Positions 1,068-59,654 of a stretch of 64,000 nt of DNA are shown in pieces. Origin of the DNA: Bacteroidota bacterium (GTDB lineage: Bacteria; Bacteroidota; Bacteroidia; UKL13-3); NCBI GenBank assembly GCA_947453415.1, contig CANGGG010000006.1, positions 1 to 64,000 on the forward strand, given 5' to 3'. The notes under the pieces are model-generated. The model saw only the letters and a list, made by a program, of their open reading frames with translations. It was not told the DNA's origin and searched no databases. The first letter of the stretch is position 1; each line of letters starts with the position of its first letter. The translations under genes were made by a program, and so were the position numbers.

Positions 1068-1166
1068 ATAAATCAGGCAAGCGTCTATTTTAGATGGTTT
1101 TTAGTTCTCTAAGACATTTGAAATTTATACAGAATACCATAATCAATTAAGGAAAAATAGCTGCAA

Positions 1167-1219
1167 CTTTCGTCAATAAGGGGAGCAAAAGCCAATCGTT
1201 AATTACGATTGGCTTTTTT
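1167..1219. repeat. 53-bp direct repeat, copy 1 (contains a terminator-like palindrome)
   Basis: CTTTCGTCAATAAGGGGAGCAAAAGCCAATCGTTAATTACGATTGGCTTTTTT, identical to 2019-2071. Confidence 0.95.
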
Positions 1220-1237
1220 GTTTGTAGAAATCATTAT

Positions 1238-1268
1238 TTTGTTTTCTATTAGAAAACATTTACTTTTG
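1238..1268 (+). promoter_or_regulatory. Bacteroidota-type promoter with overlapping palindromic operator for the higBA-like module
   Basis: TTTG (1238-1241)-N19-TACTTTTG (1261-1268). Perfect palindrome GTTTTCTA-T-TAGAAAAC at 1241-1257 between the two elements. Confidence 0.7.
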
Positions 1269-1272
1269 CCAA

Positions 1273-1584
1273 GTGTTCAATATCATTACCAGAAGAACTT
1301 TGTTAGCTTATGCCGAAAAATATCCATTAGCTGCTAATGCGCTGTATGAGTGGTATCATGAATTGGTAAAATCGGATTTTAAAAACTTCAATGCTTTAAA
1401 ATCTGTTTATGGTTCTGCAAGTTTGGCCGGAGATGATAGGATAGTTTTCAATATTATGGGAAATAAGTTTAGGCTTGTGGTTCGCATTGTTTTTGAATAT
1501 AAAGCTATACAAATTAAGTGGTTTGGAACACACAAGGAATACGATAAAATAAATGTATCAACTATTCAACATCAAATAAAATAA
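1273..1584 (+). CDS. higB: HigB-family toxin
   Basis: MFNIITRRTLLAYAEKYPLA... resembles HigB toxins (mRNA interferase fold); GTG start; overlaps an antitoxin ORF by 1 nt. Confidence 0.8.
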   Translation: MFNIITRRTLLAYAEKYPLAANALYEWYHELVKSDFKNFNALKSVYGSASLAGDDRIVFNIMGNKFRLVVRIVFEYKAIQIKWFGTHKEYDKINVSTIQHQIK

Positions 1585-1940
1585 TGGAACTGTCAGTTAT
1601 AAAAAATAAAACTCAATATGAAACATACCTGAAATGGGTTGATGAAATGTTTGATAAAAAAATATTGCCAAATTCAACAAATGGAAAAAAAATAGAAGTG
1701 GCTTTGTTGCTTATTAAACAATACGAAGATGCCCATTTCTCTATCCCTTATCCTGATCCTCTTGAAACTATTAAACTAAAAATGACTGAGCTTGGATTAA
1801 AAAACAAAGACTTGGCATGTAAAATTGGAAGTAAAGGTTATGTCTCATCTCTGTTAAGTGGACGAAAACCATTAACATTGAAATTAGCTAAAATTTTTCA
1901 TCAAGAATTAAATATTCCCGCTGAGGTATTTTTCGCTTAA
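1584..1940 (+). CDS. higA: HigA-like XRE antitoxin
   Basis: C-terminal HTH (LGLKNKDLACKIGSKGYVSSLLSGRKPLTLKLAKIFHQEL); coupled to the toxin. Confidence 0.8.
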   Translation: MELSVIKNKTQYETYLKWVDEMFDKKILPNSTNGKKIEVALLLIKQYEDAHFSIPYPDPLETIKLKMTELGLKNKDLACKIGSKGYVSSLLSGRKPLTLKLAKIFHQELNIPAEVFFA

Positions 1941-2018
1941 AAGTCAATTATTCAATATAAATCTGAAACTCCTAATTTTCTAATAATTCCATATACAATT
2001 AACTCATTTTGCTTGCAT

Positions 2019-2071
2019 CTTTCGTCAATAAGGGGAGCAAAAGCCAATCGTTAATTACGATTGGCTTTTTT
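2019..2071. repeat. 53-bp direct repeat, copy 2
   Basis: Identical to 1167-1219, 852 bp downstream; brackets the higBA-like module. Confidence 0.95.
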
Positions 2072-2787: not shown

Positions 2788-4230
2788 TTATTTTCTTCCT
2801 TTTTTAGTTTGGCTACCTAATCTATCCATTACACAACGGAAACCAATAGTTGAAGTAGCTTGTTCTTGGTCTAAATATCTTCTGTTACCAGGACTTAACC
2901 AATATGCTCTATCGTTCCAGCTTCCGCCTTTATAAACTCTAGCAGCATTGTCAATTAAAGAAGTAATACCATATTCGTATTTTTGATCGATATCTCCTTC
3001 ATATTTCAACTCATCTCTGTAACCAATATTATCCGCTTTTTTATAATTACGTCTTTTAATATTTTCAGCTTCTGATACATCTCTGTATTTAATTCTACCT
3101 AAGCTATCTTTTTCAGTAATATTACCGTCCGCATCTCTTTCTTGTGTTTGGTAATTATTTCCTCTGAACGACATGTTATCATTATTATCTTCTAATGATA
3201 AAGGTCTATAAATATCCATTACCCATTCGCTTACATTTCCAGCCATGTGGTATAAACCAAAATCGTTAGGAATATAAAATGCATCTTTAACAGCAGAAGT
3301 GTATGAAGCATTGTCATTTAAATTACCAGCAATACCTTTGTAATCTCCTCTTCCTCTAACATAATTTGCATACATTCTACCACGAGTTTTTTCTGTATCA
3401 CCTCTACGTAATGTTAAACCAGCCCAAGGATATATTTTACGAGAATCAACGTTTTCGTTATAAGATGCTGTTCTATAAGCCACACTTGCATATTCCCATT
3501 CAGCTTCTGTTGGCAAACGGTAAATAGGTAATAATATACCATCTTCCATTTTCACATCACGCTTTTTACCACCAGGTGTATAATCTTTTAATTGTTTTTT
3601 TATGTCGATAGGAGTTAAACCTAACATATAAGCTTCAGTATTAAAAGTCTCATCGTTTTGTTTATTAATATTGCTATTTTTCATTAAGCCTTCTCTGATC
3701 ATAATGTATTCATTCACACGGTCAGATCTCCATTTACAAAACTCAGAGGCTTGTAACCAACTTACACCAACAACAGGATAATCGCGGTATGCAGGATAAC
3801 GTAAATAATAATTTACATAAGGTTCGTTATAAGAAAGTTTTGCTCTCCAAACCAAAGTATCAGGCAAAGCAGAAGTTGCAATAATTGGATTTTCCGCACC
3901 ATATGCTCTAGTTAACCAATATACATATTCTAAATATTGAAAATTGGTTACTTCAGTTTCATCCATATAGAAACTATTCACAGACATACGTCTTTTAGTA
4001 TTGTTTCTATCATAAGTTACATCTTGTTCCGATGCACCCATTACAAAAGTTCCACCTTCAATAAACACTAAACCCGGACCAGTTTCTTGGTCTTTGAATT
4101 TATGTTTTTCAAATCCACCCCATTTGGAGTCATTGTATTTCCAGCCAGTAGTGCCTGATTTTTGTGAACATGCTGAAAACAACATAGTAGTTGCAAATGA
4201 TGCTAACAATAATTTATTTACTAATTTCAT
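2788..4230 (-). CDS. gldJ: Gliding motility lipoprotein GldJ (FGE-sulfatase-like)
   Basis: Lipobox SAC; GPGLVFIEGGTFVMG, YMDETEVTNFQYLEY, LPDTLVWR, YPVVGVSWLQASEFCKWR, GLYHMAGNVSEWVMD, GGSWNDRAYWLSPGNRRYLDQEQATSTIGFRCVMDR. Confidence 0.9.
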   Translation of the reverse strand: MKLVNKLLLASFATTMLFSACSQKSGTTGWKYNDSKWGGFEKHKFKDQETGPGLVFIEGGTFVMGASEQDVTYDRNNTKRRMSVNSFYMDETEVTNFQYLEYVYWLTRAYGAENPIIATSALPDTLVWRAKLSYNEPYVNYYLRYPAYRDYPVVGVSWLQASEFCKWRSDRVNEYIMIREGLMKNSNINKQNDETFNTEAYMLGLTPIDIKKQLKDYTPGGKKRDVKMEDGILLPIYRLPTEAEWEYASVAYRTASYNENVDSRKIYPWAGLTLRRGDTEKTRGRMYANYVRGRGDYKGIAGNLNDNASYTSAVKDAFYIPNDFGLYHMAGNVSEWVMDIYRPLSLEDNNDNMSFRGNNYQTQERDADGNITEKDSLGRIKYRDVSEAENIKRRNYKKADNIGYRDELKYEGDIDQKYEYGITSLIDNAARVYKGGSWNDRAYWLSPGNRRYLDQEQATSTIGFRCVMDRLGSQTKKGRK

Positions 4231-5382: not shown

Positions 5383-6405
5383 TTAAAAATCAGGACAAGT
5401 CATTGGTCTTGGATTTCTTCTTCTTACTTTTTTACGTAATTCAAAAGCCAAAGATACTTCGTAAGAACTTGCAGCTCCAGCACTGGCATTAGAAACTGTG
5501 CCATCATAAGAAAAACCTATTTTAACTTTTTCAGTACGAATACCAATAATGGCAATGATAGCATCTGTATTAACAAAAGTTTCTCTTACATATAAACCGC
5601 CAACTAATGAGCCTTTGCTAATATACATTCCTAAATTTAACTGAGAAGCTGGCTTACCCTGAAAATTTTGTTGCATATATATTACGTTAGGATATAAATA
5701 TGATGACTTGTTTTTCATTCTGCTTTCATTAATTGGATAAATAAAACCAACATGACCAGTAAATCTTCTATATATACTTACATTTACATCTCCACTTCCA
5801 TTTAAATTGAATGATTGGTTTGGCTCAGTTATATTATGAGCAGCAATACCAAAATAGAAGTTTTTACTGTAACCTAAAATTCCAGCTGCAAAATTTACAA
5901 TATTTGTTTTTCCCTCTGGTGTTCCTAAGGGTTCAGCTTTTAAATTACCATCGTATCCGCCTTGTCCTAATTGCGAACGCCAAAGAAATTTAGTGAAATC
6001 AACCGATTTCTGCATAAAGCCAGCTTGTAGCGCCATTCTAAGTGAAAACTTTCGGCTTACAGGAATTAAGTATGAATAAGCAAAGTTAGTTCCAACTGTT
6101 CTTAAAGTTCCCGTACCTTGTTCATCGTAATGTGCTTGAATGGCTATTCCACCATTGATGGCTTCAAAATGTTCATCATAACTTGCATTAACAGTTGTAA
6201 ATGAACCAGAAATTCCTGGCCATTGGTTACGAGTATTTAAAACCAAGCGCCCTACAGTACTAGAACCAGCAAATGCGGGATTTGTATATGTTGGGCAAGC
6301 GTAAAACTGCGAAAATTGAGGGTCCTGAGCATATGCTCGCACACTTATTATCAGCGGTAATATGTATGTAAGTATTCTGCGCAGCGCAGTTTTGCTAAAT
6401 GTCAT
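5383..6405 (-). CDS. PorP/SprF family type IX secretion membrane protein
   Basis: AQDPQFSQFYACPTYTNPAFAGSS signature; tandem paralogue of the adjacent gene. Confidence 0.9.
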   Translation of the reverse strand: MTFSKTALRRILTYILPLIISVRAYAQDPQFSQFYACPTYTNPAFAGSSTVGRLVLNTRNQWPGISGSFTTVNASYDEHFEAINGGIAIQAHYDEQGTGTLRTVGTNFAYSYLIPVSRKFSLRMALQAGFMQKSVDFTKFLWRSQLGQGGYDGNLKAEPLGTPEGKTNIVNFAAGILGYSKNFYFGIAAHNITEPNQSFNLNGSGDVNVSIYRRFTGHVGFIYPINESRMKNKSSYLYPNVIYMQQNFQGKPASQLNLGMYISKGSLVGGLYVRETFVNTDAIIAIIGIRTEKVKIGFSYDGTVSNASAGAASSYEVSLAFELRKKVRRRNPRPMTCPDF

Positions 6406-6543
6406 TTTTATTTCGTTTGTCTTTTTAGTAAAATATAAATTATTTTATTAATTTATATAAGGCTTAAAATACTTTTTTAGTATGTTTGTTCGTTGTATTT
6501 TCTCTACAACTATTTTTCAATTATAATAAATTTCAGATTTTAT

Positions 6544-9500
6544 ATGCAATTTTTCTTCAAAGAAATAAAAATAAAAGTTTTAACAAGTGTGTTATTTGGT
6601 ACTTTAATATTTGGTAATCATGTATTTGCCTACCAAATAATAAAAAATGTCATATTTGATTGGCAGACTCCAAAATCAGCAAAATCGGGCGAATTTCAAA
6701 CATTTTTCCTTAAAGCGAGTTACGAAAGTGAGTTTGGTTTGATCCCAATTTATCAAAATAAATTGGGAAAATGTGGCACTGAAATCATCAATTCAAAAAT
6801 TGTTGATATTATTTTAGAAGACGAAAAAATAATAAATAAAGATTTAAAAAACATTAGTAATTTAAGCTTGGAACTAAATACTAATATTGGTTTTGAAAAA
6901 CGTCAAGCATATTTATTTGTAAAAATGATTCCTTACGTAAAAGTTGGAAACGTTTTAAAAAGAGTGATTTCTTGTACCATACAAATTGAAACAAATAATT
7001 TGTTTGAATTACCCAAATATTTGGGGAAAACTAATTATACTGCAAATTCTGTTTTGGCAAACGGTCAATGGTATAAAATAGCTACCATGAATAATGCAGT
7101 TCATAGAATTGATTATACTTTTTTAAAGAATTTAGGAATGAATATTGATGCAATTGACCCAAGAAATATAAAATTATATGGCAACGGAGCAGGCATGCTA
7201 CCCGAAAGAAATGCAGATTTTAGGTATGATGATTTACAAGAAAATGCCATTGTTATTCAAGGTGAAAGTGACGGAAAATTCAATGCAAATGATTATATAT
7301 TATTTTATGGCCAAAGTCAAAAAGAAGTTTGGAAATACAATGGCTCCAACCAAGTTTTTAATAATCAACCCAATTTATATTCCGATACTACTTATTATTA
7401 TATTACCATTTCTAATAACATAGGCAAACGAATTTCATCTATTCCATCAGCTACAAACGTTAATTATAATACTTCCACTTATGATGCTTTGGTACATCAT
7501 GAAGAAGATATTACCAATTTTGTAAAAACAGGAAGAAACTGGTATGGCGAAGATTTTAACCGTCAGCCTCAGCGAACATTTACTAATATAATTTCTGATA
7601 TAGATACTTCCGCAAATGTTATTTTCCAATCAAATATTGCAGGTAGAGCATCGCAAACAAATGGATTTGATGTAACTATCAATAACCTATTTTATTTAAA
7701 CCATACCTGCTCCGGTTTGTCATTGGCTTACGATGGCATTTATGCCGATATAAACTATAAAACTTTAACATTTAAACCCAATACTAACCGATTTGATATT
7801 AACTATTCATATACCGGACCAGTGGCGCAAGGTGCAAACGGTTGGCTTGATTTTTATACCATTAATGCAAGGGCTTTTTTGAAAAATGCTGGTAAACAAA
7901 TATTATTGAGTGATAAAAATGCCGTTGCCAATGGCAATATTGCTCAATATAATTTTTCTACAACCAGAAATTTAAGCATTTGGGATGTAAGTAATCCAAC
8001 TCAAATATTTACTATTCAAGGAATTTTTGATGTAACAACTAGTCAATTTAATTTTGCGGCAAATGCTGATAGTTTGCGTTGGTTCATGGCCTTTGACAAT
8101 TCAAATTTTATAAAACCTATTAGCATTGGAAAAGTAGCAAATCAAAATATTCATGCCTTAAGTGCAGTGCAAGGAATTATTATTTCTCATGCTGATTTTT
8201 TAAGTGAAGCAAAACGATTGGCCGATTACCATAAACAAAAAAACGGATTGAATATTCATGTAATAAACGTTACTGATATTTACAATGAATTCAGCAGCGG
8301 AAGTCAAGATGTAAGTGCTATTAGAGACATGCTACGTATGTTTTATCAAAAATATACTTCTCCAAATGATCAATTAAAATATGTTACTTTAATGGGAAGA
8401 GCTAGCTACGATTACAAAGGTAATTTTAGTAAAACAAAAACAGGTTTTGTAAACACCAATTATATTCCAACTTATGAGGAAGTAAATAGCAACGATCCAG
8501 GTTCGTTTTGCACCGATGATTTTTTTGTTTGTTTGGATGACAATGAAGGAAATTTTGCTATTAACAGAAATGCTGGGGACTTAATGGATTTAGGCATTGG
8601 CAGATTACCAATAGTAAACATTGAACAGGCAAAAGGTATTGTAGACAAAGTAATTTATTATGAAACAAAAAGTAGTTATGGCGACTGGAGAAACAAATTT
8701 ACTTTTATAGCTGATGACGAATGGACAGAATATCAAATTGATTTTATGAAAACTGCAGAATATTTGAATAATACTTATTTAAGTAGATTTCAAAAATTCA
8801 ATATCCAAAAAATATATGCAAATTCCTACGAACCTTTATCCACTGCAGGTGGGAAACGTTTTCCTCAGGTGAATACTGCAATTACAAATTCCATGAATAA
8901 AGGCAGTTTAGTTATTAATTATATTGGCCATGGTGGTGAAGTAGGTTGGAGTGCAAGAAGGATTTTAAATGTAGATGAAATTAATGCTTGGAATGTAAAA
9001 GAAAACATGCCTTTATTAATGACAGCTACTTGCGAATTCAGTAGGTTTGACGATCCTAGCAGGCTGGCTGCAGGTGAATTGGCAATGATTAATCCTAATG
9101 GAGGACCGATTGCATTATTTACTACTGTTAGATTGGTTTATTCAAGTAGCAATGATGCATTAAATGATAAATTTAACAGCCAATTAGGATTAGATTCCGG
9201 AGCTATTTTACATCCTAAAACTTTTGGTGAATTAATTTTGCAAACCAAAAATTTATATGCTACAGGCAATACCAGAAACTTTACCTTATTAGGCGACCCC
9301 ATGTTACAATTAGCATTGCCAAAATACAATGTAAAAACAACATCCATTAATAATAAATCTATTGGTGTTTTTAATGATACCATCAAAGCATTGAGCAAGG
9401 TAACAATTAAAGGAAGTGTATTGGATGAAAACAATAATTTAATGAGTAATTTTAACGGAATAGTTTACCCAACTGTTTTTGACAAAGAGTCGGAATACCC

Positions 9501-59516: not shown

Positions 59517-59547
59517 TTTGCATAAAACACAAAAATACCTACTTTCG
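59517..59547 (+). promoter_or_regulatory. Promoter of SRP RNA
   Basis: TTTG (59517-59520)-N19-TACTTTCG (59540-59547). Confidence 0.65.
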
Positions 59548-59549
59548 CA

Positions 59550-59648
59550 GTCGGGTAAGCTCTGTACGACCAGCTCCTTTTAATCCCCCAGGACAGGAAT
59601 GTAGCAAGGGCGTAAAGTTGTAGCGGTGCGATGCAGTAAGCTTGCCCT
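59550..59648 (+). ncRNA. ffs: Small bacterial SRP (4.5S) RNA
   Basis: Terminal helix GGGTAAGCT/AGCTTGCCC (one G-U) and apical CCCCAGGACAGGAATGTAGCAAGGG, matching the conserved SRP RNA tip; promoter upstream, terminator downstream. Confidence 0.82.
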
Positions 59649-59654
59649 TTTATA

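Follow-up and report, generated by a model that had tools for sequence, protein, structure and literature searches.

The window, by which is meant the whole 64,000-nucleotide stretch analysed here, begins at base 1 of contig C6, inside the gene of a short tyrosine recombinase whose N-terminus is cut off by the contig start (positions 3-509, + strand; PF00589, 51 bits). When complete, this protein comprises ~190 amino acids without an N-terminal SAM-like domain; the R-K-H-R-H-Y residues are present, and the catalytic columns are invariant with XerC, XerD and IntI-like proteins. It is either the cargo of an upstream cassette or a rival integrase. An open reading frame with an HEYVHARQ motif follows (564-1067, +), which has no match in Pfam or NCBIfam, is missing at this place in the relative G009 and is probably cassette cargo. 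A recombination site, TCAATTAAGGAAAAATAGCTGCAACTTTCGTCAATAAGGGGAGC, occupies positions 1143-1186 (+) with a position weight matrix score of 64 of 75, and its exchange point was placed by breakpoint mapping inside GGGGAGC (1180-1186, +). Directly behind it, a terminator hairpin of the type found behind tRNA-Asn in relatives (1187-1217, +) opens an 852-bp mobile cassette, which runs from the first base of one GGGGAGC up to, but not including, the next (1180-2031, +). The right-hand site consists of a left arm (1944-1994, +), holding an inverted arm that matches AAGGGG, and of ACAATTAACTCATTTTGCTTGCATCTTTCGTCAATAAGGGGAGC (1995-2038, +; score 56.9), which marks the end of the array and is followed by a terminator hairpin (2039-2069, +) like that behind tRNA-Asn in G001, G004 and G016. 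The first gene to the right, here as in G002 and G005, encodes a protein matching the 5-fold beta-flower repeat at 25.7 bits, below the cut-off (2133-2549, +). It is flanked by a gene on the opposite strand (2788-4230, -), which we take to be GldJ-like and which served as a marker for the orthologous locus in 11 species. Elsewhere in the window, a Bacteroidales small SRP RNA lies at 59546-59651.

The cargo of the cassette is a toxin-antitoxin pair that had been described in an earlier note as higBA-like. The HigB-family toxin (1273-1584, +) matches PF09907 with 93.9 bits (cut-off 27; 7.4e-27) as well as PD-Lambda-2_A, while the HTH antitoxin (1584-1940, +) matches PD-Lambda-2_B over its first 117 positions and HTH_3 at 22.4 bits (1.3e-4), just under the cut-off of 23. 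The antitoxin lies downstream of the toxin, a gene order that fits HigBA even though the HTH_3 match is below the cut-off. With its HigB match, HTH antitoxin and leading toxin, the pair resembles known higBA and PD-Lambda-2 systems and is an ordinary module, only its mode of travel being unusual.

The two ends of the cassette share an exact 53-bp direct repeat (1167-1219 and 2019-2071, 852 bp from start to start), as the earlier note had observed, and zero such repeats are expected from the shuffled-sequence control. Once mismatches are allowed, the repeat reaches 65 bp at 94% identity. Each copy holds the palindrome noticed before, with 13-bp arms and a 5-nt loop, and the tyrosine recombinase does end close to where it had been placed, 658 bp before the first repeat. 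A genome-wide search allowing up to 3 mismatches found the 27-mer core only twice in its own genome.

A much wider family of sites is built on the same core. The conserved core GCTGCATCTTTCGTCNNNAAGGGGAGC occurs in ~40 Bacteroidota genomes, where 76 distinct sites, a collection that includes a few weak ones, stand as direct repeats between unrelated cargo. Their consensus reads TTCAACCCTTYAATTTCCTRATAGTCACATAC followed by TCAATCATCGCATTATAGCTGCATCTTTCGTCNNNAAGGGGAGC and then by a hairpin that varies from copy to copy; per column, the 27-bp core averages 1.62 bits of information, compared with 0.76 to 0.92 for the left arm, and the value drops to 0.23 past +9. The 19-mer TTTCGTCAATAAGGGGAGC gave 31 exact matches in a search of 85,462 species genomes, against an estimated chance expectation of ~2, and all but one of the matches are in genomes named as Bacteroidota (Chitinophagaceae, Sediminibacterium, Aquirufa, Flavobacteriales and others, mostly metagenome-assembled genomes). 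The remaining match, in Synergistaceae (L038), scores 15 against ~25-75 elsewhere and was taken as chance. Variants of the site are present in 12 of 96 relatives, one weak match having been removed, and also in a class-wide sample, and no match was found among phages, plasmids and IMG/VR. Contigs end within 1 kb of a site in 23 of 43 loci, where 6.5 were expected. The whole analysis is based on draft genomes, most of them metagenome-assembled. No account of such arrays was found in the open-access literature searched, which left aside subscription papers, preprints and tRNA-anchored serine-integrase arrays.

The segments between sites are mostly 0.35 to 2 kb long and carry one or two unrelated genes in both orientations, with the sites all in direct orientation and the breakpoints sharp. 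HigBA, MerR, AraC, TfoX_C, SDR, DinB-like, zeta-toxin-like pair, MNT/HEPN and Fic modules are represented, those of the MNT/HEPN, Fic, MerR and SDR kinds having been named from sequence motifs only. DUF3703, a transglutaminase-like protein, a metallo-beta-lactamase-superfamily protein from Aquirufa rosea (L026, - strand, near 5576-6467) and a serine beta-lactamase-family protein (L041, near 6790-7885) were also found. That the repeat would flank other cargo in related genomes had been named beforehand as a check, and this was seen many times over. In G005 and G009 the same 852-bp higBA unit has different neighbours, and a diverged HigBA copy is found in another genus (G044). Both the repeated sites and the modular cargo can be read directly from these genomes, and the recurrence of one unit among different neighbours supports the earlier reading of a mobile cassette.

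At the locus beside gldJ, five close species (the window genome G000, G002, G005, G008 and G009) carry different cassettes. The arrays of G000 and G009 both end in HigBA; G002 has HigBA, a large reversed gene and, last, a 301-aa gene; G005 has HigBA, AraC and a 155-aa gene, and G008 another gene. Compared with G005, G002 and G009, HigBA of the window genome is 98.7%, 97.8% and 96.0% identical, against 95.2%, 96.8% and 93.4% for gldJ, and porP is 92.3% identical to that of G005, where HigBA reaches 98.7%. A clearly empty allele was not identified: behind tRNA-Asn, G001 has a gene that itself resembles a cassette gene (DUF3703-like), and relatives without recognisable sites, G001 for example, may hold decayed arrays.

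Comparison of cassettes that share a neighbour allowed the exchange point to be located. Where the left neighbour is the same, cassettes diverge just past GGGGAGC, as in L015, L027 and L043, in which the upstream cassette and core are identical and divergence sets in at +2. Where the right neighbour is the same, they agree only from AGGGGAGC onward; the window and L018, compared with L010, share an identical downstream cassette, and leftward agreement ends after AGGGGAGC. The spacer variants CAATA, CTGTA, CGAAA and CAATT travel with the upstream cassette. Because the breakpoints obtained from common left and common right neighbours bracket GGGAGC, this segment is the exchange point. Two further observations concern the surroundings of the core. 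The near-identical upstream cassettes of L039 (3535) and L063 (73), and of L018 (1501) and L013 (847), differ already from TCAATCATC onward, which would fit a conversion tract or another exchange point at the core's left edge. In addition, many cassettes have one more GTTGCATCTTTT motif past the hairpin, directly oriented and ~55-67 bp to the right of the exchange point (L104 from 14955, for example), which is a possible second recombinase binding site.

A gene for tRNA-Asn(GTT), detected with ARAGORN and a motif search, precedes the array, on the same strand, in 19 of the 25 loci with at least 1.48 kb of upstream sequence and in 16 of the 18 with at least 4 kb, although the arrays of G005 and G002, with long upstream sequence, show no tRNA on the same contig. 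These counts show that the arrays are anchored at this tRNA gene. It ends in GGGAGC and passes directly into the kinds of hairpin that open cassettes; in G001, G004 and G016 the sequence behind it is AAAAGCCAATCG...GGTTGGCTTTTTT, a hairpin of the type seen in the window repeats. The segment at which cassettes are exchanged is therefore the 3' end of tRNA-Asn, and by its letters it corresponds to the end of the acceptor strand, the discriminator base and the first C of CCA. Beyond AGGGGAGC the likeness between site and tRNA-Asn is no greater than chance, and the idea of the site as a tRNA mimic past its last 8 bases was set aside as not significant. Sites with unrelated left flanks were considered as a separate attI; instead, each belongs to the 3' end of the cassette that comes first after the tRNA.

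Every cassette opens with a hairpin, which differs between cassettes. Since it is variable, lies outside the exchange point and stands behind tRNA-Asn in relatives, the hairpin is best understood as a terminator; of the two roles proposed for the palindrome in the earlier note, that of terminator is thus retained, while that of folded recombination site is given up. The right-hand repeat of the window is read as the displaced original terminator of tRNA-Asn, and the left-hand repeat as the start of the HigBA cassette with a terminator of the same type, and the sharing of this type accounts for an identity that spans 53 bp and not the core only. In the window genome, tRNA-Asn is located on contig C66, which ends 3.4 kb behind the tRNA. 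C66 and C6 are inferred to belong to one array; the contigs are not joined, and the array on the gldJ side could be separate.

Taken together, the toxin-antitoxin pair is probably one cassette of an integron-like mobile array anchored at tRNA-Asn in freshwater Bacteroidota, and the window would represent the right-hand end of such an array. Each cassette would be a unit able to form a circle: it would open with GGGGAGC and a terminator hairpin, hold one or two genes that bring their own signals, and close with a ~76-bp site that has AGGGGAGC once more as its final bases. Strand exchange, by a site-specific recombinase, would take place within GGGAGC, where tRNA-Asn has its 3' end. On insertion behind the tRNA, a cassette would leave the tRNA 3' end intact and supply a new terminator, and the original one would be displaced to the rightmost position in the array. 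The tRNA gene would thereby take the role of attI, and the cassette sites that of attC. That recombination is current and that new cassettes enter at the tRNA is suggested by this arrangement.

The enzyme proposed for this exchange is a large serine integrase abutting tRNA-Asn, seen on C66 and in three relatives. On C66, a gene for a 518-aa protein with Resolvase (PF00239, 74.3 bits) and Recombinase (PF07508, 40.8 bits) domains lies directly behind tRNA-Asn and runs toward it; its 3' end overlaps the tRNA, whose 3' end encodes the C-terminus APWAGLEPATP in antisense. An integrase 55% identical occupies the same place in G005, with a fragment in G008 and a diverged form in G002. Remnants occur in L029 and L034, and one in G297 reads antisense through an interior array site. 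Related integrases stand at tRNA-Asn in G066 and G068, of other families, where pattern search found no site. A DNA methyltransferase-like gene behind a serine integrase (L253, 2392-3567) suggests a larger element at tRNA-Asn. The domain pair and the gene's position beside a presumed att site are those of known large serine integrases, from which it differs in being tied to a multi-cassette array and not to one prophage or conjugative element. Judged by this position, the protein is the best candidate, with slightly more in favour of its responsibility than against it. The site is without the symmetric layout usual for attP of serine integrases. A serine integrase at the tRNA is missing from most arrays, that of G009 among them, and for these the enzyme would have to act in trans or have been lost.

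Several other explanations have been weighed, and the probabilities of those that name another enzyme overlap with that of the first, which concerns origin more than mechanism. Integrative elements are known to accrete in tandem, keeping attL and attR while losing the integrase (PMC5704250), and the arrays could be decayed elements stacked behind tRNA-Asn without any dedicated cassette system. Some arrays do contain integrase remnants, and as in the CIMEs and IMEs of that work the target is a tRNA 3' end, which is kept intact on insertion (GGGAGC, then the cassette), the attachment sites are retained and the tandem stacks are integrase-less. However, the units here are of single-gene size (~0.35 to 2 kb) with sharp, shared standard ends, are not decayed conjugative elements, and recur among different neighbours and genera: HigBA in G000, G002, G005, G009 and G044, TfoX_C in G011 and G297, SDR in L026 and L029, and AraC in G005, L029 and L030. 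Accretion is considered unlikely.

Mobilisation in trans by an integron integrase, XerCD or a 205-aa small serine recombinase is held to be just as improbable. Most arrays do have no local recombinase, and the integron-type integrase is common in the family, but its own arrays use GTTA attI/attC, and its distribution does not follow that of the sites (7/12 site-bearing against 34/84 other relatives, p = 0.20), so that IntI in trans was rejected. XerCD was likewise rejected, as the dif sequence of the genus, TTCTTATAATTAACATTATGTTAA in G003 with close variants in G004 and G006, is clearly different from the site. The small serine recombinase is found at arrays in G005 and L044 and as a remnant in L029; copies of 205-217 aa (L120, 10197-10814; L044, 3744-4397; L029, 597-845) are rare elsewhere in the family.

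A somewhat smaller chance still is given to the same cassette arrays being served by the short tyrosine recombinase at positions 3-509. It has the full set of catalytic residues, and an invariant core of ~8 bp would be compatible with the overlap region of a tyrosine recombinase. In G009 it ends ~120 bp before the first recognised site, a placement resembling that of the integron integrase before its attI in the same genomes, and close homologs occur in 2/12 site-bearing against 0/84 site-free relatives (p = 0.014). Nonetheless, it is missing from most site-bearing genomes, being present at few arrays only while tRNA-Asn is the common anchor; in G009 the gene is found within the array, with several kb between it and the tRNA; a homolog in G451 (70% identical) has a different, GTTA-type sequence behind it, and homologs on small contigs look like cargo or plasmid resolvases. 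The suggestion that the window's own recombinase moves the cassette is therefore not supported. Related ~190-aa tyrosine recombinases without the N-terminal domain were recorded at L117-L119 and L216-L220, several on small contigs, and one is followed by GTTAGTGGC. Finally, a common terminator paired by ordinary tandem duplication is very improbable and counts as refuted by the spread of the site and its breakpoints: the hairpin is terminator-like, but the repeat, instead of recurring genome-wide, has only 2 copies in the genome, and the conserved part precedes the hairpin and is found with different hairpins and differing cargo in ~40 genomes.

The arrays anchored at tRNA-Asn share many features with integrons. 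In both, tandem cassettes of one or two genes, including toxin-antitoxin pairs, are separated by direct-repeat sites at the cassette 3' ends, exchange falls near the right edge of the site, the platform stays put and some arrays have no adjacent integrase. They differ from integrons in having tRNA-Asn in place of attI, a large serine integrase as the candidate enzyme, cassettes that open with a terminator and genes in both orientations. No IntI-type integrase next to an attI was found at the arrays, and the IntI-like gene of the window genome lies on C50, accompanied by a GTTA attI of its own. The GTTRRRY and RYYYAAC boxes are not conserved in the site, whose invariant right end is AGGGGAGC, and the higBA-type sites do not retain the GTTCAAC stretch of the left arm. 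Although the site arms CCCTT/AAGGG pair in most copies, single-strand folding of 44 aligned sites did not exceed that of shuffles (median z +0.26 and +0.32 for the two strands). With neither boxes nor fold, an integron attC was rejected. The site thus resembles neither attC nor XerCD dif, in keeping with the earlier remark that it was unrecognised. Small modules, often toxin-antitoxin pairs, with short flanking recombination sites are also known as the dif modules (pdif) of Acinetobacter plasmids, but the sites described here are unlike dif, all in direct orientation and behind a tRNA, with no support for XerCD.

The integron-type integrase of the window genome merits a separate description. 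The C50 protein (L124, 1-3429; see also L144-L163) matches NF040815 with 232 bits (cut-off 220) and TIGR02249 with 215 bits (cut-off 265), and its 3' end lies less than ~100 bp from an attI ending in AAGTTA, followed by attC-like cassettes. Contigs of many relatives end at this attI/cassette point, and the complete genome G030 holds several arrays of this type. The C50-type integron looks common in Bacteroidota and appears to be missed by attC models.

Complete integrons have been reported as very rare in Bacteroidetes (PMC9024848). The arrays may form a separate class, in which a serine integrase and a tRNA-Asn platform capture, stack and reshuffle single-gene cassettes whose terminators restore the tRNA unit. 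This would be an analogue of the integron, assembled from unrelated components and distributed across Bacteroidota, a tentative proposal rated a little short of an even chance. Bacteroidota appear to have a second means of keeping and exchanging cassettes, which searches based on attC do not see and by which genera share toxin-antitoxin pairs, regulators and beta-lactamase-superfamily proteins. The short, defined site means that such arrays can be sought anywhere, and the tRNA-terminator arrangement would explain how a tRNA gene can act as a port open to insertion. Should the serine integrase prove to be the enzyme, cassette capture would have evolved more than once, with different chemistry.
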